In this document: one piece after another, positions 20,545 to 33,119 of the stretch | Layout of the letters: every line of letters starts with the position of its first letter | Numbering within the stretch: position 1 is the stretch's first letter | Source of the DNA: Bacteroidota bacterium | Lineage (GTDB): Bacteria > Bacteroidota > Bacteroidia > Chitinophagales > Saprospiraceae | Length of the DNA: 64,000 nt | Direction of reading: 5' to 3' | Assembly: GCA_018222965.1 (NCBI GenBank) | Contig: JAAEZH010000022.1 | Coordinates: 1-64,000 of the forward strand | Translations under genes and position numbers: made by a program | The notes under the pieces: model-generated | What the model was told of the DNA's origin: nothing | Database searches by the model: none | What the model saw: the letters and a program-made list of their open reading frames with translations, nothing else

Positions 20545-21447
20545 TTAGCTGTTAGTTGACAAAGTTTGTAAAATGGCTTCAGCCAGCAGATCTGCTGCCG
20601 GGGGATACTCCCGAAACCACAATTCCGGTTCGATCAATTCCAGTTCTCCCAGAGCGAGGCTGCCGTCATTCGCGTAAAGCACATCTACCCGGGCGTATAG
20701 GGGCATGGGGTTACAGGCTTTTACGGCCGCTTCCGCGAATGCCATCTCTTCGCGGCTGGGTTGGTAGGGATGTACGGTACCGCCAAAATCATCCTGCACC
20801 CGAAAATCTCCTTTCCGGGCAACTTTTAATACGGAATGGGTGTACTGTCCGCCGATCACCATCAGCGAAACCTCTCCCCTTTTCACAATATCTTCCTGAA
20901 AGGGTTGTAACAACATAGCTTCATTTTCCAGCAATGTCTGGAAGATATGCTCATGCTTATCGCGATTTTCAGCCGTAAGCAGATACGTATGTCGGGCTGC
21001 TCCGGAGACCGCTGGTTTTAATATAGTCTTCTCCCATCCCAGTTTTTCATGTAGGCTTTTCAGCGAATGTTTTTCGCCGGCTTTCATAAAATGGGTGGGA
21101 ACAACATTTACCCCCGCCCTTTCCAGATCAGCCAGGTAATACTTGTCCATATTCCAGCGAATCTGCTCCAGCGGATTGATAAAGATCGTTTGACTCCCTG
21201 CCTTGTCCAGCCAGCTTTGAAATTCCTCAAAGCGATGGAAGTAATCCCAGGTGGTACGAAATACGGCCGCTTCTACTCCGGACCAATCAAAACCCGGCCT
21301 TGCCCAATCTACCCGAACGGCCTCTACCCCTCTGGCCAAAAGGGCATTTACCAGCAATCCGTCCTCTTTCAGGATATTCGCTACATACCAATCGGGATTG
21401 GAGGGGTTTTCGTAGCGCGATTCGGTCAGGACAGCGATGGGCTTCAT
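20545..21447 (-). CDS. ATP-grasp domain protein
   Basis: A 300-residue ATP-grasp enzyme of the glutathione synthetase/RimK-like group, which joins a carboxylate to an amine through an acyl phosphate. Seen are a pre-ATP-grasp N-terminal lobe with FRTTWDYF, the ATP-binding strands TILKPAVSGAARHT and MLLQPFQEDI, and the metal-binding end LGELELIEPELWFR, where E-x-E-x-x-E replaces the classic ExN. It resembles uncharacterised relatives of the cycloserine synthetase DcsG, but no pathway partner is adjacent, so the substrate is unknown. It follows the DUF3817 gene on the same strand across about 120 nt of short repeats. Confidence 0.8.
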   Translation of the reverse strand: MKPIAVLTESRYENPSNPDWYVANILKEDGLLVNALLARGVEAVRVDWARPGFDWSGVEAAVFRTTWDYFHRFEEFQSWLDKAGSQTIFINPLEQIRWNMDKYYLADLERAGVNVVPTHFMKAGEKHSLKSLHEKLGWEKTILKPAVSGAARHTYLLTAENRDKHEHIFQTLLENEAMLLQPFQEDIVKRGEVSLMVIGGQYTHSVLKVARKGDFRVQDDFGGTVHPYQPSREEMAFAEAAVKACNPMPLYARVDVLYANDGSLALGELELIEPELWFREYPPAADLLAEAILQTLSTNS

Positions 21448-24573: not shown

Positions 24574-25536
24574 ATGAAGCGACGGGAGTTTATCAAAGGA
24601 TCTGCGATTTTGGGGATGAGTATTGCTACCTCCAATTTGCTGGTTGCCAATTCGGGCATGTATCATGAAAATAGCAAGCGCAAGATTTATCGCATCCTAA
24701 ATTCAAAGGGTGTGGATGTAGGCACCTTACCCGTTATGCGGGCTTTCGCCGGAAATCATGTTGATCACGTTTCTCCTTTTGTAATGCTTGATGAGTTTGG
24801 CCCCATTAACCTGGATGCAGGTAGTGATCCCTTACGCGTAGATGCGCATCCACATGCCGGGGTAACTCCCACCACTTATTTTCTGGAAGGAACGGGGCAC
24901 CACAAAGACAGCCTGAACTTCGACTTCCAGATCGGTAAAGGCGATTTCATGATGTTTAGCTCGGGAAAAGGAGCGATACATATGGAGGAGTCTGGTAAGA
25001 AACTGTATGACGAAGGCGGTGTGTATCACGGATTTCAGATCTGGCTAAACACGCCTGCCAAATACAAATTCGCCGATCCGACAACTACTGTTTTCCGTTA
25101 CAAGGACATGGACCTGATTGAAGAGCAGGCCTACACGGCCCGGGTCGTTTTGGGCGAACTGTTTGGTGCCAAATCAAATATCGAGACGCATACGCCTGCT
25201 TTTTACTACCACATCAATATGTTTGACGATTCCCGTCTGGACATCCCAACCGATCCTTTGCACAATGCCTTTATCTATCTGATAGATGGTAAGCTGGAAC
25301 TGGAAGGCGGACGAATGCTACAGAAAAACCAGTTGGCTCTTTACCAGCGTGGCGACAGCCAGATCAATCTCTACGCTCAATGCGGCGCAGAATTTCTGGT
25401 GTTGGGCGGACAGCCGCTCAACGAGCCTGTTTATTCTTATGGCCCTTTTGTCATGAATGACGAGGAGCAAATTCGCCAGTGTATCCGCAATTACAACGAT
25501 GGTTTGATGGGCAATCCGGATGTGGTGAATAGATAG
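24574..25536 (+). CDS. Pirin family protein with Tat signal
   Basis: A two-cupin pirin-like protein of 320 residues. The N-terminal cupin has the metal-binding HPHAG and the later histidines and glutamate of pirins (GAIHMEESG), so a metal site is expected; relatives include quercetin dioxygenases. Unlike most pirins, it starts with MKRREFIKGSAILGMS, a twin-arginine (RRxFIK) signal, so the folded metalloprotein should be exported. I chose the ATG at 24574 because the signal begins there; the open frame runs 25 codons further upstream without looking like protein. It lies downstream of the bestrophin gene with its own promoter box. The substrate is unknown. Confidence 0.88.
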   Translation: MKRREFIKGSAILGMSIATSNLLVANSGMYHENSKRKIYRILNSKGVDVGTLPVMRAFAGNHVDHVSPFVMLDEFGPINLDAGSDPLRVDAHPHAGVTPTTYFLEGTGHHKDSLNFDFQIGKGDFMMFSSGKGAIHMEESGKKLYDEGGVYHGFQIWLNTPAKYKFADPTTTVFRYKDMDLIEEQAYTARVVLGELFGAKSNIETHTPAFYYHINMFDDSRLDIPTDPLHNAFIYLIDGKLELEGGRMLQKNQLALYQRGDSQINLYAQCGAEFLVLGGQPLNEPVYSYGPFVMNDEEQIRQCIRNYNDGLMGNPDVVNR

Positions 25537-25550
25537 GGCAACTTTATGTG

Positions 25551-25621
25551 CGACCCGCTCCGCAGGTCGTTTTTCTTCGATCGCCACTTTGCCAGGGATG
25601 TTGGACCCGCTACGCAGGTCC
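25551..25621 (+). repeat. Two GACC-CGCnnCGC-GGTC hairpins, first terminator-like
   Basis: First hairpin: CGACC-cgctccgca-GGTCG (about 25551-25569), followed by TTTTTC, which could end the pirin transcript. Second: GGACC-cgctacgca-GGTCC (25603-25621), followed by TTT. The outer pairs differ between them in a compensating way (C-G versus G-C). The hairpin at 23249-23276 belongs to the same family. Confidence 0.7.
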
Positions 25622-25760
25622 TTTGGGTATTCATTCAATTGACCCTCTTTTGTACCGAAAAAATTCGACACGTACAGAAATTCAATAATCCGTACAATCG
25701 GTGAATTAAAACTCGGAAGATTACTGGCAAACCGGATCATGACGATGGATTTTCATCATT

Positions 25761-26132
25761 TTACCCTACAATCAGAAATACAGATACAAGTATTAGGAAA
25801 ACGCCAAAGAGCATAGATCTTAAACCAAATTGAGATCCACCCATTGATAAGAAACTGTTTGTCATAAATACTATTCCTATGACTATTGCAGCGACCCCAA
25901 AGCCAAGTATTACATAAGCCAACGTTTTTAACCATAAACCATCATTCGATTTCTGCTTCCATTTATGTATCCGCTTTTCCAAGCGTTTTAATTGTCGGGT
26001 TTGCTTTTTATCTTTTACAATATGTTCCCATTTCCCGGTTTTTTCCTTAGGAACGTGGATCGCTGATTTGGCGGTAGTAGGCAGAAACAAAAATAGCAGG
26101 CTTAGACTGAACAGGTAAAATGGTGTTTTCAT
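25761..26132 (-). CDS. Small membrane protein with signal peptide
   Basis: I recognise no family. It has 123 residues from the ATG at 26132: a signal peptide (MKTPFYLFSLSLLFLFLPTTAKS), a highly basic stretch at about 35-65 (KKQTRQLKRLEKRIHKWKQK), likely helical, and two membrane helices (about 70-92 and 100-122). The basic segment and short loops resemble small Bacteroidota inner-membrane proteins of unknown role. It stands alone between genes on the opposite strand. Confidence 0.6.
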   Translation of the reverse strand: MKTPFYLFSLSLLFLFLPTTAKSAIHVPKEKTGKWEHIVKDKKQTRQLKRLEKRIHKWKQKSNDGLWLKTLAYVILGFGVAAIVIGIVFMTNSFLSMGGSQFGLRSMLFGVFLILVSVFLIVG

Positions 26133-26159
26133 TGGTTTAATTTTATTAGGAGAACGCAT

Positions 26160-26539
26160 GGATGAAATGTATCTGGAGACAATTTATTTAAAGCATTCAT
26201 TGAGCGGGTAGTAAATATCCGTTCACTCATATAGGTGTTTCTCTACTATTAAGAAGGTTTTGGCTATTGCGACTGTGCAGGTCAGCACTGAAACAGTTCA
26301 TGCAATAACTAAACAATTTCTGTTCTCAGCCTTTCTCTTGTTAGTATACTGTATTGCGCACAATAGTATTTCTCCCCTCTATCCGGGTAGCATGGGAATG
26401 ATTGGCATTCAATGCCCAAATGATTTCCTGCCTTCGGTTTTTTTGTTATAATACTGACCGATACTTTGGCCTATGCAGTGTATCACACATTAAGCATTGA
26501 AAGCAGTGCTGTATTTATAAATGAAAAATCCAGAAAATA
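26160..26539 (+). promoter_or_regulatory. Upstream region of ATP-grasp gene with short leader frame
   Basis: Divergent intergenic stretch of 380 bases. TACTTTG at 26462-26468, with TTG at 26443-26445 (16-nt spacing), is a possible promoter. Just upstream, TATAAT lies at 26448-26453. A nine-codon frame from an ATG at 26521 (MKNPENSEE, stop 26548-26550) overlaps the GTG start of the next gene in another frame. No other gene is seen. Confidence 0.35.
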
Positions 26540-27760
26540 GTGAAGAGTAGTTTCGCCATCCTGGGCTGGAGTTTGCCCGTAATTGAAAGTCTAAAAAAAG
26601 CCGATGTTCCTTATGTCGTGGTTTCCTTCCCCGACTTTGAGCCTTATGCCAAAGAACACGACATTCCCTTTGTTTCTTACCAACTCGACGAATGGAGTGA
26701 CAGCTCCAACTCGCTCGACCTCGTCGAAAAACTCAAACCATATAATGCCGATGTAGCTGTACCTCTTTACGAAGAAACTGTTGAATGGGCTGGTGCCCTT
26801 AATTCCATTTTCCGGGATGATCCACGGGTACTCAACCGCGCCTTCCTGTTCCGAAACAAAGCGATGATGAAACGCAAAGCCCTGCTTGGCGGATTGCGCG
26901 TCGGATTGTTTGAGGAGGTTTACAACATGGACCAGGTCCATAGTTTTCTCGACCGGCTGAATGAAGCGGAGTTACAGCTTCCCGGCGAAGAAGATTCCTG
27001 GTTTCACCTCAAGCCATTCGCGGCAGCGGGAACAGTAGGCCACCGATTCATCAAATCCAGAGAGGACATAGATAAAAAAGTACAAGCAGGCGATTTCCCC
27101 TGCCTCGCTGAAAGTCACCTCACTGGTAAAGAGTTTTCCTGCGAAGCCTTTATCCACCGGGGTAAAGTGCGTTTCCTGAACATAACGGAATACGTACACC
27201 TGGGTTACTCCAACTTTATTCCGGCAGGTCCCGAGCTCGAAGCCAAAAGAGAATTGATCCTGAAAGAAATCCAAAAACTGGTCGATGTCTTTGGCATCGA
27301 ATACGGTATGATTCACCCGGAGTGGTTTATCACCGAAGATAATGTGCTAAACTTTGGAGAGGTTGCTTGTCGTATTCCCGGCGGGCATATCCTCGAGCTG
27401 GCCTCACAAGCCTGGGGATTCGATGCCCTGTTGGCCTTTGTGATGTGCCACAGTCCGCATTTGAGCGATGAGGAACTCGACAAATATTTCCCTGCTAAAG
27501 ATTTCGAACCGAAGAATTACTTTGGTAATGTGATGGTCTTCCCGCAAAAAGGACAGATCACCAAATTGCAGATTCCGGATGAATTACTGGAAGAACCTTA
27601 CTTCAGAGACCACAATCTCGTAGCGCCGATCGGCAATCAAAAGGTCGGAAATCGGGAAGGTTTTGGTAATCACTTTGGTACCGTTAATTTTACGGGTGAA
27701 AGTCCGGAGAAAATGCGTGAGTTGCTGAAGTATTACGAAGAAGTACCCTTCTACGTATAA
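26540..27760 (+). CDS. ATP-grasp domain protein (carboxylate-amine ligase type)
   Basis: A 406-residue ATP-grasp enzyme of the carbamoyl-phosphate synthase/biotin carboxylase-like group. It has a Rossmann-like N-terminus (FAILGWSLPVIESLKKADVP), the ATP-binding region FHLKPFAAAGTVGHRF, the strand CLAESHLTGKEFSCEAFI and the metal site EYGMIHPEWF...NFGEVACRIPGGHI, which matches the usual ExN...RxGG end with E-V-A-C-R. The C-terminal domain is the extended kind seen in amino-acid and peptide ligases. The start is GTG: a TGA lies six codons upstream in frame with no ATG between. A tiny upstream frame overlaps the start. It ends in a 12-bp terminator-like hairpin. The substrate is unknown; a dipeptide or cell-wall precursor is a guess from the alanine racemase operon downstream. 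Confidence 0.8.
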   Translation: MKSSFAILGWSLPVIESLKKADVPYVVVSFPDFEPYAKEHDIPFVSYQLDEWSDSSNSLDLVEKLKPYNADVAVPLYEETVEWAGALNSIFRDDPRVLNRAFLFRNKAMMKRKALLGGLRVGLFEEVYNMDQVHSFLDRLNEAELQLPGEEDSWFHLKPFAAAGTVGHRFIKSREDIDKKVQAGDFPCLAESHLTGKEFSCEAFIHRGKVRFLNITEYVHLGYSNFIPAGPELEAKRELILKEIQKLVDVFGIEYGMIHPEWFITEDNVLNFGEVACRIPGGHILELASQAWGFDALLAFVMCHSPHLSDEELDKYFPAKDFEPKNYFGNVMVFPQKGQITKLQIPDELLEEPYFRDHNLVAPIGNQKVGNREGFGNHFGTVNFTGESPEKMRELLKYYEEVPFYV

Positions 27761-27781
27761 ATAATACAGACATTTGAGCAG

Positions 27782-27824
27782 AAGCCGGCAAAGTCTCTAT
27801 CTCGATGGAGTGCTTTGCCGGCTT
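27782..27824 (+). terminator. 12-bp hairpin after the ATP-grasp gene
   Basis: Perfect stem AAGCCGGCAAAG/CTTTGCCGGCTT with a 19-nt loop, 22 nt after the stop. The T run is short (TTT then CG) because the hairpin merges into a TTCGCCGAA motif, and a second copy of that motif follows at 27853-27861. Confidence 0.55.
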
Positions 27825-27946
27825 TCGCCGAATGAAGGAGTCTGTAATGGCTTTCGCCGAAAGGCAAAAAAAAGCGACGATAGCTTTAGCTAATCAAAAG
27901 ATCTAAACAAGCATTTGCCCAAACAGGTAAATCGCCAAGACAATAA

Positions 27947-29920
27947 ATGAACGAAATCAAAGAAGATAAACAACAACGATTTAATACGCTTCTGGAGGAA
28001 GTGCGGGAAGCAAGCCTAAACCGTGCACAAAAACTTCAGCAGCTGATCAGTTCCATTGATCAACTTACTCGTTCGATGGAAGGGATAACCTTCATCTATG
28101 GTAAAATGGAGGATCTGGATGGTATTGGATTGTTTAAACACAGTACCTGGGAGGATCCCAAAGCCCTTATACCGTATTTGGTGCGCGGCACGCTTTTAGC
28201 ACCGCCCCCATCCAATGTACTGGAAATCGTCAGCGAATTAAAAATGCTGAAGATTGCCTGCGGCGACTATCAAACAGATCAAATTGATCCCGAACAGGCC
28301 GGAAATTTCATGGAAGACATGTTGGTTGCGACCTTCGATCTTGCCTTTCGATCTCCGACCGAAAATGTTCGAATAAAATCCACAAAGGGGGACTTAAAGC
28401 GGATTCGGCTCCTTTTCGATTTTATCATAGATCACTACCATTTTCCACAGCTTAAATCAAAGCTTGCGCTGGAGGTAGAGACCATTGCTGCACAAAGGCC
28501 CATCATTACTCATCGTCTGGAGGATCTGCTTCAATTGATTAAAGACAAAGTAGATCTGGTTCCGGGAGAAAAGGAGGACGAACGCCTTCGGTATTATGTG
28601 GATGCGCTCTATCACCCTACCCGGCTGGTACGGGAGTTGCCCGATATCGACACCTATATTTCCCAGATTGAAAAAGGCACAGAAACTCAACGCCGAGCAG
28701 AGTGCCAGAAGATGGGAGAAATGCTGCACAGCACCGGTCTGGTTTCAGATCATTTGTGGGCTATGCTTCGGTTTTTGTCAGAAAAGGATTCAGATCTCAT
28801 TCCCGAGTTACTTCAGCTTAATGATCACGGTACCGTGGATTTTGAACGCCACAAAGCCTTCATCATCCAATTGATTCAGGATTGTATTCTCGACACCAAC
28901 AAACAAGCCATTTATGGACTAAAACGCATGTTGGAGCGGAACCTTCTTTCGCGGAGGCCAGTTTGGAATGCGCTCAATAAGTTGATCCGGATAAACATCC
29001 ACCCGACCTTAAAAAAGCAAATCCGCAAATCCGTTCGCGAGCATACGGAAACCGAACCGATCAAATTGCTTGTCGGTGCAGCCATTAGCGTACTGGGACT
29101 CCCACTTGGCCTGGGACAGGGCAATAATCCGACCTGCCAATCTGCGCGAGGCATAAGCATGTGGAGCATCCAGGCCCCTGGTAAATTGCTGAATATGATC
29201 ATCAATACAGCAATCAGTAATCATTTAGAATTGCGCTATGAAGGGGAACTGGTGGAATCTTCCAATCTGGAAGAAAAGCCCGACGCCTTTTATGCAGAAC
29301 TTGATCCGGTATCTATTGTGCTGGTTCCGCATCTAGACAACATCTACGGTCAAATGATGCAAAAAGCCATGACCAAGCACATTGGTTATGATCCGCACAT
29401 TTCGGTTAATCCGGCTTTTTACGGGCATTGGATACAAACCGGCTTTGCCAGCTGCTACAACAGCCTGACCGGAGCCATCGATCAGTACGAACAATTTGCG
29501 CGAACATTCTATGCTTCCTTTCACCCGGCTTATAATGGCGGATATTCACTGGTTTACTCCGTGCCCATCGGCATTTTCATTACCAGTTCGAAGGGGGATT
29601 TACTGGGTTTCCATGCCATTTCACTTCTGCGTATAGCCAAAGATGAAAAAGAAGAGTGGCGGGCCTATTTCTACAATCCAAACAACGAAGGCAGACAGGA
29701 TTGGGGACAGGGGATAAAGCCAACAGTGTCCGGAAATGGAGAAAGGCCGGGAGAATCTTCTCTGCCCTTTTACCAGTTTTTATCGAGGGTTTACGCCTTT
29801 CATTACAATACCAAAGGCATTGAAGATCGTATGGACAAGGTTCCTGAAAAAGAGCTTAAAACTATTCAATCACTGGCCCGAAACAGTTGGGGCAAAAAAT
29901 ACATCTGGTTACCGGCATGA
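27947..29920 (+). CDS. Unknown protein with papain-like C/H/N motif
   Basis: I do not recognise the family. There is no signal peptide. The first 380 residues are helical and rich in charged residues (MNEIKEDKQQRFNTLLEEVR...). The last 270 carry motifs in the order of a papain-fold peptidase: QGNNPTCQSARGISMW (Gln391, Cys397), LLGFHAISLLRI (His556) and YFYNPNNEG (Asn577). A Gln six residues before Cys, a His at the start of a strand and an Asn/Asp about 20 residues later fit the Q-C-H-N set of papain/C39/transglutaminase-like enzymes. Its TGA overlaps the ATG of the alanine racemase gene (ATGA), so the two are translationally coupled. Inference: a cytosolic amide-bond hydrolase or transferase linked to D-alanine metabolism; an inactive relative is possible. 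Confidence 0.6.
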   Translation: MNEIKEDKQQRFNTLLEEVREASLNRAQKLQQLISSIDQLTRSMEGITFIYGKMEDLDGIGLFKHSTWEDPKALIPYLVRGTLLAPPPSNVLEIVSELKMLKIACGDYQTDQIDPEQAGNFMEDMLVATFDLAFRSPTENVRIKSTKGDLKRIRLLFDFIIDHYHFPQLKSKLALEVETIAAQRPIITHRLEDLLQLIKDKVDLVPGEKEDERLRYYVDALYHPTRLVRELPDIDTYISQIEKGTETQRRAECQKMGEMLHSTGLVSDHLWAMLRFLSEKDSDLIPELLQLNDHGTVDFERHKAFIIQLIQDCILDTNKQAIYGLKRMLERNLLSRRPVWNALNKLIRINIHPTLKKQIRKSVREHTETEPIKLLVGAAISVLGLPLGLGQGNNPTCQSARGISMWSIQAPGKLLNMIINTAISNHLELRYEGELVESSNLEEKPDAFYAELDPVSIVLVPHLDNIYGQMMQKAMTKHIGYDPHISVNPAFYGHWIQTGFASCYNSLTGAIDQYEQFARTFYASFHPAYNGGYSLVYSVPIGIFITSSKGDLLGFHAISLLRIAKDEKEEWRAYFYNPNNEGRQDWGQGIKPTVSGNGERPGESSLPFYQFLSRVYAFHYNTKGIEDRMDKVPEKELKTIQSLARNSWGKKYIWLPA

Positions 29921-31077
29921 AGGTTAAACACTCTTCCAGAATCTACCTGAGTCAGAAAGCACTCAAAACCAACATCAATTTTATTCGTAAAAAAGTAGGG
30001 CAGCATCCGGTCATTTCGGCGGTAGTAAAAGCCAATGCTTATGGGCATGGCATTCCGCAGATGGTAAAAATGCTGGAGAAGGCCGGCGTCAATCATTTTT
30101 CGGTTGCTTCCGCCTTTGAGGCAGAAGAGGTATTGGAAAGTTGCGCGCCCGGTTCCCGGATTATGATCATGGGTATTCTATACAATGAGGATATTGCCTG
30201 GGCGATCGAACACGATATCGAGTTTTATGTCTTTGATTACAACCGCCTGCCCCTGGTTCTGGAAAAAGCCAAAGCCCTGAATAAACAGGCTGTCATTCAT
30301 CTCGAAGTAGAGACCGGCACCAATCGAACCGGCATGGACCGGAAAGATATTTCCAAAGCCATAACTTTCCTGAAGAAGCATAAAAAACACATTCGCTTTG
30401 AAGGTGTCTGTACCCACCTGGGCGGGGTAGAGAGCATTGGCAATCAGTTTAAGATCCAGCCTCAAATTGTAAAGTTTAAAGAAACGCTGCGGGAGCTGAA
30501 AAAGAAAAACTTTATGCCGCCTTTCCGGCACATCGCCTGCTCCGGAGCAGCACTGGCTTTTCCGGACACGCATTACGACATGGTACGTGTGGGAGTAGCT
30601 ATTTATGGTTTCTGGCCCAGTCCCGATATCTACCACCTCCATCTGCAGGATGCCGGGAAGATGAAAGACGCGCCACTCAAACGGGTATTGACCTGGAAGA
30701 CGGACGTTATGGACATCAAACACATTAAAGAGGGAGAATTTGTCGGGTATGGCACGGCTTTTCAGGCAACCCGCAATATGGATATCGCGGTAATTCCATT
30801 GGGTTATTCCAACGGTTATCCACGTGGACAATCCAACAAAGGTTTCGTCCTGATCAAAGGCAAGAAAGCACCGGTAGTCGGTCTGATCAATATGAACCTG
30901 TTTATGGTAGACATTTCCCACATTACGGATGTGGAAATTGACGACGAAGTGGTATTATTGGGTAAGCAGAAAAATGCAGTTATCCGCGTAAGCTCTTTCA
31001 CCAATTTCACCAATCTGCTCAACAATGAGATGCTTAGCCGATTGCCTTCTGCTATTCCCAGGAAAATAATCAGTTAG
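29917..31077 (+). CDS. alr: Alanine racemase
   Basis: PLP enzyme that interconverts L- and D-alanine in the cytoplasm, 386 residues from the ATG at 29917. The PLP lysine is in VVKANAYGHG (Lys38), the barrel motifs ETGTNRTGM and HIACSGAAL follow, then DMVRVGVAIYG and the catalytic tyrosine in FVGYGTAFQ, and the C-terminal strand PVVGLINMNLFMVDIS. Many Bacteroidota carry alanine racemase fused to MurF, so this free-standing copy may be an accessory enzyme. The start is fixed by the ATGA overlap with the upstream papain-like gene. The downstream membrane-protein gene begins 2 nt after its stop, so all three form one operon. Confidence 0.93.
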   Translation: MKVKHSSRIYLSQKALKTNINFIRKKVGQHPVISAVVKANAYGHGIPQMVKMLEKAGVNHFSVASAFEAEEVLESCAPGSRIMIMGILYNEDIAWAIEHDIEFYVFDYNRLPLVLEKAKALNKQAVIHLEVETGTNRTGMDRKDISKAITFLKKHKKHIRFEGVCTHLGGVESIGNQFKIQPQIVKFKETLRELKKKNFMPPFRHIACSGAALAFPDTHYDMVRVGVAIYGFWPSPDIYHLHLQDAGKMKDAPLKRVLTWKTDVMDIKHIKEGEFVGYGTAFQATRNMDIAVIPLGYSNGYPRGQSNKGFVLIKGKKAPVVGLINMNLFMVDISHITDVEIDDEVVLLGKQKNAVIRVSSFTNFTNLLNNEMLSRLPSAIPRKIIS

Positions 31078-31079
31078 CT

Positions 31080-31337
31080 ATGAATCCGGTTACCCGAAGA
31101 ATCCTCCGCAGTATAGGCATTGCCATCATCGCGCTGATACTGGTCAATGTATTTGCCTTTGTATTTGAAATCCTGGTACATGGCATAGGAGACTCCTGGG
31201 CCTTCCGGTTTAAACACGGCGTATTTTACCACAACGAAAATCCCACAGGCCTGGAATTCGGACACTCCAAGACCTGGGGATTTGTAGCTTTGGTGGCTAT
31301 CGTTGCGTTTTTGCAGGTCGGAAACAAAAAAACCTAA
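31080..31337 (+). CDS. Small two-helix membrane protein of the alr operon
   Basis: An 85-residue protein with membrane helices at about 10-33 and 62-80 and a short extramembrane loop rich in Phe, His and Asn (FKHGVFYHNENPTGLEFGH). I recognise no family. The ATG lies 2 nt behind the alr stop, so it is translated from the same message. It could anchor or export the product of the upstream enzymes, but nothing in its sequence shows this. Confidence 0.65.
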   Translation: MNPVTRRILRSIGIAIIALILVNVFAFVFEILVHGIGDSWAFRFKHGVFYHNENPTGLEFGHSKTWGFVALVAIVAFLQVGNKKT

Positions 31338-31374
31338 ATCCTATTCCCAACCCCATTCCTATTCCTATTCCTAA
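31338..31374 (+). repeat. ATTCCT-type short tandem repeat after a stop codon
   Basis: Immediately after the stop of the 85-residue gene come repeats of CCTATTCC/CATTCCTATTCCTATTCCT. They reach the 3' end of the convergent M28 peptidase gene. There is no terminator-like hairpin. Confidence 0.7.
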
Positions 31375-33119
31375 TAAGCATATATCATCTGCTTACTCTC
31401 CACCAGCTGTCCGTCAATGATCAGACTGTAAGCATAGGTACCTGGCACATATTGGTGGTTTTGAAAGTCGTATTCCACCTCATTGCGTCCAATTTCTAAA
31501 CTTATTGGCATTCTGGCCAGTTCGCGGCCTTGCAGATCGTGCACGCTGATCCAGGCTTGTTTGTGCTCGATCGGTCGTTCTACCTGTACGCCAATAACGG
31601 TTGCTTCATCGAATGGATTGGGGTGATTCTGCAAGAGCGTTAAGCCCCTTTCAGACCAGGGCAATTCGTAAGTCCCTGTGGTGAATGCGGAGAACCTTTC
31701 ATTAGAGAACAAACTTTCAATACCAATGTCATCTACGGTCGCTGCCGAAAGATCGTACACCTGATCAGCCATCAATCCGTAAATCGTATCCAAACTATTG
31801 TAGATGGTATAAACCGTATCCCAGTCATTGGTAGATGGTGTCCGGATTCCTATGCGGTAGACCCCGTAATCGTTTGGATCATCAAAGGATACTTCAAATC
31901 CATTGTTGACCGGAACGACTTCAAAATTGGTTGGCGCAATCGGCCCGGCCGCAGCCATCGCAATCGCATTGCCATTGATAATGGTATTTCTGGCCAGGTA
32001 GTTGAAATCCACAAAGAAACTATCCAGGATCATATCCCCGTCTGTATCCACTCCCAACACATCTTCCATCGAATGTTGCCGGTCGTGGTAATCGGGTTGC
32101 GACGGATTGCCATCGCCATGCTCATTAGCAGAGGTAAACCGAATCGAGGGATAGCCTCTTTCACGGAAAGGAATGTGATCTCCTCCCCTGCCGGTGCGAT
32201 CCTCCGGCGTCATGATATTGATCACCGGCTTTACGGCCATAAATTGATCGGCCATTTCCTGAAATTCCAGCTTGGTGAAACGCGCCAGTTGTTTGTTGGG
32301 TGAGTTGTATGAGCCCTGCGAATAAATCCGCACATTGATGCTATCCACATCGTTTAAGCCCGGACAACCAGGCGGAGAAGCCGTTTCCCCACAGATGACG
32401 CCGCCAATTACATCATTATTAAATACGGCCAGTAAAGGCAGGTCATTGTCTTTGATCCACTTCGAAAAAGCTTCCGCGCCCCAAAGTCCCTGTTCTTCGC
32501 CGGTAGTCAATACAAACACAATGGTTCTGTTGTAACTATACTGACTCATGACCCTGGCCAGTTCCAACACCAGAGCTGAACCACTTCCATTGTCTTCCAT
32601 CCCCTCCGCCATACAATCCACATCGCAATTATCTTCGCAGCGGCTGTCCAGATGTCCTTCTACCAGAACAAATTCCTCGGCTTGTGGCCCCTGACCGGGA
32701 AGTACCGCGAAAACATTTCGGTGCTGGCCCATGCCGCAAATGGGTTCATCAAATTGCAGGTAGGATACCAGCAAGCGGTCTTCGGCCTGTGCATCGAAGG
32801 TTTTAAACTTCTCATACGCCCAGCGGCGGGCGGCGCCCATTCCAAAGGTAGTACTGGTGGTGTCAGAGCCTGTATTTCGGTTGCCGAAAGTGCTCATTTG
32901 TTCCAGATAGCTTTTCAGCGAATCGGCATTTATTTCGCTGACAAGCATCTCCGAAATCAGGTACGGATCAAACATCGGATCGGTCTGGGCATAATCGGCC
33001 GGATCAAAATCTCCCATCAAAACGGCCTCGGCCTCCGGATTGGTGACTGTAATATTGGTCTGGGCAGATACCGCAAGACTCATTAACAGCAATAACAGTA
33101 TTGGTAAAGTTCGAATCAT
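31371..33119 (-). CDS. M28 family zinc peptidase, T9SS
   Basis: Secreted aminopeptidase-type metallopeptidase of about 582 residues. A signal peptide (MIRTLPILLLLLMSLAVSAQ) and about 100 residues of prodomain precede an M28 domain with the two-zinc ligands in order: VEGHLDSRC (His, Asp), MEDNGSGSA (Asp), TTGEEQGLWG (Glu-Glu catalytic pair), NNDVIGG (Asp) and a final His in GGDHIPFRE. A fibronectin-like domain follows (about 400-480), then a T9SS sorting domain (LLQNHPNPFDEATVIG to the end). Start at 33119, where the signal peptide begins. It should hydrolyse peptides at the cell surface. Confidence 0.93.
   Translation of the reverse strand: MIRTLPILLLLLMSLAVSAQTNITVTNPEAEAVLMGDFDPADYAQTDPMFDPYLISEMLVSEINADSLKSYLEQMSTFGNRNTGSDTTSTTFGMGAARRWAYEKFKTFDAQAEDRLLVSYLQFDEPICGMGQHRNVFAVLPGQGPQAEEFVLVEGHLDSRCEDNCDVDCMAEGMEDNGSGSALVLELARVMSQYSYNRTIVFVLTTGEEQGLWGAEAFSKWIKDNDLPLLAVFNNDVIGGVICGETASPPGCPGLNDVDSINVRIYSQGSYNSPNKQLARFTKLEFQEMADQFMAVKPVINIMTPEDRTGRGGDHIPFRERGYPSIRFTSANEHGDGNPSQPDYHDRQHSMEDVLGVDTDGDMILDSFFVDFNYLARNTIINGNAIAMAAAGPIAPTNFEVVPVNNGFEVSFDDPNDYGVYRIGIRTPSTNDWDTVYTIYNSLDTIYGLMADQVYDLSAATVDDIGIESLFSNERFSAFTTGTYELPWSERGLTLLQNHPNPFDEATVIGVQVERPIEHKQAWISVHDLQGRELARMPISLEIGRNEVEYDFQNHQYVPGTYAYSLIIDGQLVESKQMIYAY

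Follow-up and report, generated by a model that had tools for sequence, protein, structure and literature searches.

The stretch of DNA analysed here (the window) comprises 64,000 nucleotides, positions 1 to 64,000 of the forward strand of contig JAAEZH010000022.1, in assembly GCA_018222965.1 of a Bacteroidota bacterium of the Saprospiraceae. According to its list of open reading frames (ORFs), three genes lie at 26540-31077, encoding an ATP-grasp ligase, a 657-residue protein here called P657 and an alanine-racemase-type enzyme dependent on pyridoxal phosphate (PLP). We found that the ligase and P657, accompanied in some phyla by the racemase, make up a conserved unit occurring largely in salt-adapted bacteria, that model and alignments of P657 predict a papain-like fold and active site, and that the unit is linked genomically to the genes of ornithine synthesis. 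The reading we prefer, held with middling confidence, is that the unit directs the biosynthesis of a small-molecule amide derived from ornithine, which most likely serves as a compatible solute (osmoprotectant).

A sequence-only reading of the window had proposed that Q391, C397, H556 and N577 of P657 form a papain-type site, and that the protein would fold accordingly and keep C397 in its homologues. The residues stand at these positions in the clan CA order Gln, Cys, His, Asn/Asp, and all four were invariant in the 88 P657 proteins of more than 580 residues that were compared (window protein included) and in six out of six tandem paralogues, 94 of 94 aligned proteins altogether, as well as in a 9-row alignment. 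Such invariance indicated that the four residues are not a chance arrangement. AlphaFold modelled the full protein with a pLDDT of 91.2 and a pTM of 0.88, with a weak loop at 390-395, shortly before C397, and the C-terminal domain alone with a pLDDT of 89.9. In the domain model helix 46-58 begins at C397 (residue 46), H556 (residue 205) lies inside strand 201-214 and N577 (residue 226) directly follows strand 220-225. The top Foldseek matches were calpain cores, with an E value of 1.2e-2 when the whole model was the query and 2.5e-4 when it was the isolated domain. When P657 357-620 was aligned to calpain cores with VIA-align, Z reached 8.0-8.3 (206-221 aligned residues, rmsd 4.5-4.7, 12-16% identity), a value near 8 being modest and, by the tool's own note, weak alone. 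The phytochelatin synthase Alr0975 (2bu3; Z 6.9, 141 aligned residues, rmsd 3.7) and the staphopains (Z 6.4-6.7) followed, and 48 of the 50 rows listed for the domain were recognised as papain-like enzymes, the other two (8ssk and 9jdd) being toxin domains whose titles are silent on their fold. With the whole model, helical-repeat proteins matched residues near 60-170 (Z 5-5.6). Because the VIA-align rows, the order of the residues and their secondary-structure positions agree, the papain-like assignment of the modelled C-terminal domain is firm, and we predict that P657 is almost certainly an active enzyme of this kind.

The Halomonas sequence was left out of this structure work. For alignment A4, proteins shorter than 600 residues or at least 80% identical to a kept protein were removed (68 of 92 kept), and L045, L066, L075, L085, L093 and L094 were then removed by hand, so that 62 remained besides the window protein; alignment A5 comprised 51 P657 domains and that of the window. 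Comparisons by sequence gave little. P657 matched no Pfam, PHROG or PADLOC family, and its best NCBIfam row (E 0.09) and its single PDB row (E 2.2) were taken as chance. Among 52 domain members compared with Pfam no calpain row appeared at E 0.05, and one relative had an unrelated row (E 0.02) also taken as chance. To judge by these comparisons, the P657 family shows no sequence match to the calpain core family (C2).

When named genomes were scanned with the single P657 protein no relative appeared; a profile scan with alignment A1 yielded at least 568, of which the best 80 were taken on. Carriers among the matches listed were Phaeodactylibacter, Algoriphagus, Cyclobacterium, Fulvivirga, Fodinibius, Balneolaceae and Gemmatimonadetes and, within the Bacillota, Halobacillus, Pontibacillus, Salipaludibacillus, Gracilibacillus, Oceanobacillus and Planococcus citreus; many titles are those of what we take to be salt- or soda-lake genera and sites. 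P657 was present in 32 of 199 genomes of the Halobacillus litoralis order, in 4 of 395 genomes of the phylum sample and in 6 of 60 relatives of the window genome (itself included), in one of them (G014) as two pieces at contig ends. Plasmid records gave one match, in Halomonas sp. PA16-9, and phage records none to the unit.

The surroundings of P657 were compared over 88 loci, which do not amount to 88 independent genomes: L019 and L030 are apparently the same contig (13,642 bases), L105 and L207 are the same place on a 197,465-base contig, and other loci may be duplicates. The most constant partner was the ATP-grasp gene, which the sequence-only reading had noticed just upstream; it accompanied P657 in 83 loci, on the same strand in all of them. 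Four of the exceptions lie at contig edges (L028, L038, L059 and L085), and only L105 truly lacks the gene. The ATP-grasp protein scored under the cut-off of PF13535 and far below those of its NCBIfam rows, and its profile matched L-amino acid ligase structures (4wd3, E 1.6e-9; 3vot, E 5e-4). It probably forms an amide.

The racemase gene was near P657 in 47 of the 88 loci, in keeping with a linkage that had been proposed from the window, where the racemase ATG overlaps the P657 stop codon (ATGA). Its N-terminal motif HSSRI was found downstream in 43 loci (94 proteins scanned), and in 27 of these it begins 3 nt past the P657 stop, so that the racemase gene begins within the 3' end of the P657 gene. 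Over 44 loci the pairwise identities of ligase, P657 and racemase co-varied (r 0.88-0.92), as expected if the three proteins, so compared, travel together. By record title, the 41 racemase-free loci belong to Bacillota, eight Gemmatimonadetes, Halomonas, one Oligoflexia metagenome-assembled genome (MAG) and L095, which is titled Chryseobacterium yet has the GNAT-like and second-P657 neighbours typical of Bacillota loci; two of them, L064 and L093, have less than 600 nt of downstream sequence. The operon of three that had been read from the window included, after P657 and the racemase, an 85-residue membrane protein. The first two were linked in 47 of the 88 loci, but the last had no convincing tblastn relative in the other 87 (best E 3.1) and was dropped as a part of the unit.

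The window racemase scored over the cut-off of the alanine racemase family TIGR00492 (168 bits), and its K38 and Y278, presumably the PLP lysine and the catalytic tyrosine, were invariant in the 9-row alignment. As had been anticipated, the genome holds a second, full-length alr fused to murF (NCBIfam PRK11930, 1040 bits against a cut-off of 804). Unlike this MurF-Alr, the window racemase has a Glu at the carbamylated-lysine position, NMN in place of the CMD motif and a different inner-gate region. A third Alr-type gene, 45% identical to the window racemase, stands in a row (L106:3097-8499, G000:C36) with a GNAT-like gene (named by eye), a sodium:solute symporter, an M20 amidohydrolase and a gene resembling the ornithine racemase Orr (318 bits, below its cut-off of 480). 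The amidohydrolase exceeded a general amidohydrolase cut-off, its next match, the ectoine enzyme DoeB2, staying under its own, and the row looks as if it served to take up an acylated diamino acid and break it down. Because this 45% identical relative adjoins the Orr-like gene, there are hints that the branch of the window racemase handles ornithine-like substrates. Since the genome holds both the fusion and the third gene, the window copy can be regarded as dedicated, as the sequence-only reading had supposed, and as not needed for wall D-alanine, which can come from MurF-Alr.

That reading had also joined ligase, amide-processing enzyme and racemase into a pathway fed by D-alanine for a peptide or wall component. 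The three proteins did turn out to be a conserved unit, but D-alanine supply for the wall was rejected as the main reading in view of MurF-Alr and of the Bacillota, Gemmatimonadetes and Halomonas loci that keep the pair without a racemase, and because the recurring neighbours (argBDCJ, AblB and, once, an ectoine synthase) speak for ornithine and osmolytes instead.

In eight loci (L018, L021, L022, L026, L027, L028, L031 and L034) argB, argD, argC and argJ adjoin the unit, all four types exceeding NCBIfam cut-offs in L022, and in L040 argD, argC and argJ do so. The window genome carries its argBDCJ set on another contig, where its only argC over the cut-off is found. ArgJ was present in 8 of the 60 relatives, namely in all six P657 genomes and in 2 of the 54 others, and exceeded its cut-off in 22 of 25 further P657 genomes, five of them Gemmatimonadetes; the misses were a fragment (G161), a Marivirga MAG and the racemase-less Oligoflexia MAG. 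ArgG (E <1e-50) occurred in 17 of the 60 relatives and in none of the six P657 genomes, in which no match exceeded 21 bits (one scrap of 20.8 bits in the window genome). Because the six lack a real ArgG, their ornithine is probably not destined for arginine by the usual route, judging by ArgG alone. Ornithine, or a close diamino acid, is a likely building block of the product.

What links the unit to osmolytes is AblB, a single ectoine synthase and the nature of the hosts. AblB, an osmolyte acetyltransferase, was near the ATP-grasp/P657 pair in 7 of the 88 loci, all in Bacillota (both proteins tested exceeded the TIGR03827 cut-off), and AblB-like genes stood beside the pair in 5 of 27 further loci of the Halobacillus order (L187, L198, L203, L205 and L206, the last two on the opposite strand). 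In Oceanobacillus senegalensis (L072, 5511-10412) an AblB-like gene, the ATP-grasp gene, P657 and an ectoine synthase follow in a row, the synthase 51 nt 3' of P657. Homoectoine, by our own chemistry, corresponds to cyclised N-delta-acetylornithine. PMC5924519 reports that some ectoine synthases are solitary, with a function not yet resolved, and that EctC is able to hydrolyse homoectoine; the L072 row may offer a context for such a solitary EctC. Among the solutes of Halobacillus halophilus, PMC4187189 lists N-delta-acetylornithine, whose pathway and acetyltransferase it gives as unidentified in 2013. Amide and dipeptide osmolytes are described in PMC1224877. On balance we lean towards a compatible-solute role for the unit.

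Several observations weigh against this reading. The ArgJ contrast among the 60 relatives has a Fisher value of 5.6e-7 that ignores relatedness and is optimistic, the genomes not being phylogenetically independent, and two genomes, G030 and G001 (the only one of the same genus), carry ArgJ without P657. Taken alone, the ArgG contrast is not significant (Fisher 0.17), and one of the genomes, G009, is just 89% complete. Besides, seven Cyclobacterium loci are near an arginine operon with an apparent argG (cluster 10, named by eye). ArgJ was found in 152 of the 395 phylum genomes, by which it was discarded as a phylum-wide marker; those phylum matches that were listed are all in other classes, except the window genome. 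The link of ArgJ to P657 is therefore strong inside the class of the window and uninformative in Balneolota-like families. On the osmolyte side, AblB exceeded its cut-off in just 22 of 49 P657 genomes (of 50, L033 being left out), no AblB-type acetyltransferase was found in the window genome, the ectoine synthase adjacency is that of one locus, and some Bacillota with the pair are presumably soil organisms (Neobacillus terrae and Peribacillus glennii).

We infer the substrates (that of the racemase included), the product, the direction of the P657 reaction and the osmotic role, which would combine as follows. ArgB, ArgC, ArgD and ArgJ, encoded on another contig in the window genome, would convert glutamate to ornithine. 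The ATP-grasp enzyme would then activate a carboxylate with ATP and join it to an amine; the resulting amide or dipeptide, which contains ornithine, would be held by P657 as a thioester on C397 and passed to a second amine, or to water for removal of the solute. In Bacteroidota and Balneolota the racemase would alter the configuration of either ornithine or the conjugate, whose side-chain amine may in some Bacillota be modified instead by an acetyltransferase such as AblB or another GNAT.

We slightly favour a transferase over a hydrolase as the nature of P657. It is possible, if rather doubtful, that P657 does no more than degrade the amide which the ATP-grasp enzyme has made, as in glutathionylspermidine synthetase/amidase, whose amidase half breaks down the amide of the synthetase. 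Papain-like folds are mostly hydrolases, the nearest structures to P657 are calpain proteases, and a hydrolase would be needed for solute turnover once salt drops. The structural matches nevertheless include phytochelatin synthase (2bu3, Z 6.9), a papain-like transpeptidase acting on glutathione, and an operon that always joined an ATP-consuming ligase to a hydrolase of its product would be wasteful in the absence of strict control. Copies of P657 standing alone (L207, L208, L209 and L211) are compatible with either function.

Wall modification, in which the ligase would add a racemase-made D-amino acid to peptidoglycan and P657 would edit the bridge, has parallels in the enterococcal D-aspartate ligase, an ATP-grasp enzyme, and in the ornithine-type wall of Halobacillus, and would suit a racemase over the alr cut-off. 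We consider it very unlikely, given that the racemase was not found in any of the 41 loci of Bacillota, Gemmatimonadetes, Halomonas and Oligoflexia type, that no wall gene was recognised among the 45 largest neighbour clusters, that P657 has no signal peptide apparent by eye, that MurF-Alr is present in the genome and that argBDCJ, AblB and EctC do not fit as neighbours. Both ATP-grasp enzymes and papain-like proteases are found in secondary-metabolite and ribosomal-peptide clusters, and the patchy distribution of P657 (6/60 and 4/395) would agree with modification of an ornithine-containing product directed against competitors or forming part of a siderophore. This too is unlikely: other clusters among the 45 (named partly by eye, ORFs below 100 residues and with them short precursors being left out) were either confined to one genus or members of broad families, an ABC-ATPase cluster found in 9 loci being an example, and a spread over Bacteroidota, Gemmatimonadota, Bacillota and Halomonas, with many salt-adapted carriers, better fits a housekeeping solute. 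A role in defence or in phages was set aside, there being no match in phage records, no PHROG and no meaningful PADLOC match; the one PADLOC row, to PrimPol (E 0.0026, 47 residues of the ATP-grasp protein), was taken as chance.

Comparison with known systems gave partial likenesses. As with the AblA-AblB solutes (N-delta-acetylornithine and N-epsilon-acetyl-beta-lysine), a diamino-acid block, salt-adapted hosts and, in some Bacillota, AblB beside the pair are found, but here the constant core is the ligase with the papain-like enzyme, and AblB is optional. The gene set of the N-acetylglutaminylglutamine amide system consists of an ATP-grasp/GNAT protein, an amidotransferase and an M42 peptidase; it resembles the unit in an amide osmolyte made by ATP-grasp and a peptidase in the same cluster, and differs from it in that the second enzyme of the unit is papain-like, not M42 or an amidotransferase. 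No protein of that system was named among the NCBIfam matches of the four window proteins, the coverage of the system by NCBIfam being our assumption. In glutathione synthetase with phytochelatin synthase, and in glutathionylspermidine synthetase/amidase, a papain-like enzyme presumably likewise handles the small amide of an ATP-grasp ligase, and Alr0975 is itself a structural match; P657 however showed no sequence relation to any PDB chain, has a long helical N-terminal part and is linked to ornithine genes. In butirosin synthesis BtrJ is an ATP-grasp enzyme and BtrH a papain-like acyltransferase. BtrH is mentioned in PMC10318531. That ligase with a papain-like acyl transfer enzyme is a likeness, but no carrier protein was recognised among the neighbours of the unit (ORFs below 100 residues left out) and P657 has no Pfam match. 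Calpain cores (family C2) are the top structural matches; P657 differs from them in having no Pfam match, in being bacterial and in standing in a small-molecule operon. The window racemase, for its part, is like alanine racemase in exceeding the TIGR00492 cut-off, unlike MurF-Alr at the gate and carbamylated-lysine positions, and recalls Orr through its relative's neighbour.

The features of the locus are collected in Table 1; the ORFs and the ATGA overlap described from the sequence alone were all present there. A gap of 186 nt separates the ATP-grasp gene from that of P657, and within it an inverted repeat with GCCGGCAAAG arms lies at 27780-27830, no T run being seen by eye. No Rfam family matched at 25500-31800, the repeat included. 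Promoter-like sites were fewer than in shuffled sequences (5 against a mean of 8.1) and terminator-like sites more numerous (12 against 5.8). Outside the unit, the window holds a second ATP-grasp gene at 20545-21447 on the minus strand, of RimK type (PF08443, 34.9 bits).

Table 1. Genes and predicted catalytic codons at the ATP-grasp/P657/racemase locus (window coordinates).
Feature	Position	Strand	Remarks
ATP-grasp ligase	26540..27760	+	406 aa, GTG start; PF13535 20.5 bits (cut-off 27)
P657	27947..29920	+	657 aa; helical N-terminal region about 1-350, papain-like cysteine domain about 352-657 (predicted)
Q391 codon	29117..29119	+	Oxyanion-hole glutamine position; invariant
C397 codon	29135..29137	+	Predicted nucleophile; helix start in domain model; invariant
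H556 codon	29612..29614	+	Predicted catalytic histidine; long strand; invariant
N577 codon	29675..29677	+	Predicted catalytic asparagine; directly after next strand; invariant
Alanine-racemase-type PLP enzyme	29917..31077	+	386 aa from ATG; TIGR00492 293 bits
Predicted membrane protein, 85 aa	31080..31337	+	Adjacent; judged outside the conserved unit

Further neighbours and copies were noted in other loci. Another GNAT-like gene was near the pair in 8 Bacillota loci (L095 included); of three scanned, one exceeded its Pfam cut-off, one was just under it and one had no row. An acyltransferase-family gene (PF03417, scanned in L076 only) occurred in 3 of the 88 loci, all Bacillota, and stood divergently 5' of the pair in L076, L081, L102, L186 and L202. 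In L071, L080, L086, L091, L095, L101 and L210 a second P657 copy of 606-629 residues stands in tandem behind the pair and is preceded by a divergent GNAT-like gene; of these loci, the first six listed have a second copy that keeps the catalytic residues and is shorter at its C-terminal end. Extra copies without an ATP-grasp partner were found in L105 (that is, L207), L208, L209 and L211, whose genomes hold a paired copy elsewhere.

The folds concerned are known; the literature searched showed neither the P657 family nor its fixed partnership nor the probable pathway. No paper on the unit was found there, which does not prove that none exists, and the 2009 amidoligase survey of Iyer et al. may mention it. 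It is conceivable, at the tentative end of what we propose, that the unit makes an undescribed class of compatible solutes, ornithine-containing amides or dipeptides (with a D-residue in Bacteroidota) assembled by an ATP-grasp ligase together with papain-like acyl transferases of a new family, without ribosome or non-ribosomal peptide synthetase (NRPS), and that in Halobacillus and Planococcus the same core is part of the missing route to solutes of the acetylated-ornithine type. If this is true, a widespread unnamed family of at least 568 relatives would explain the making or tailoring of nitrogen-rich solutes in marine, salt-lake and soda-lake bacteria and in Halobacillus-type halophiles, a pathway that had not been elucidated as of 2013 would gain direct gene targets, and a papain-like enzyme would have been recruited to the synthesis or turnover of a small molecule.

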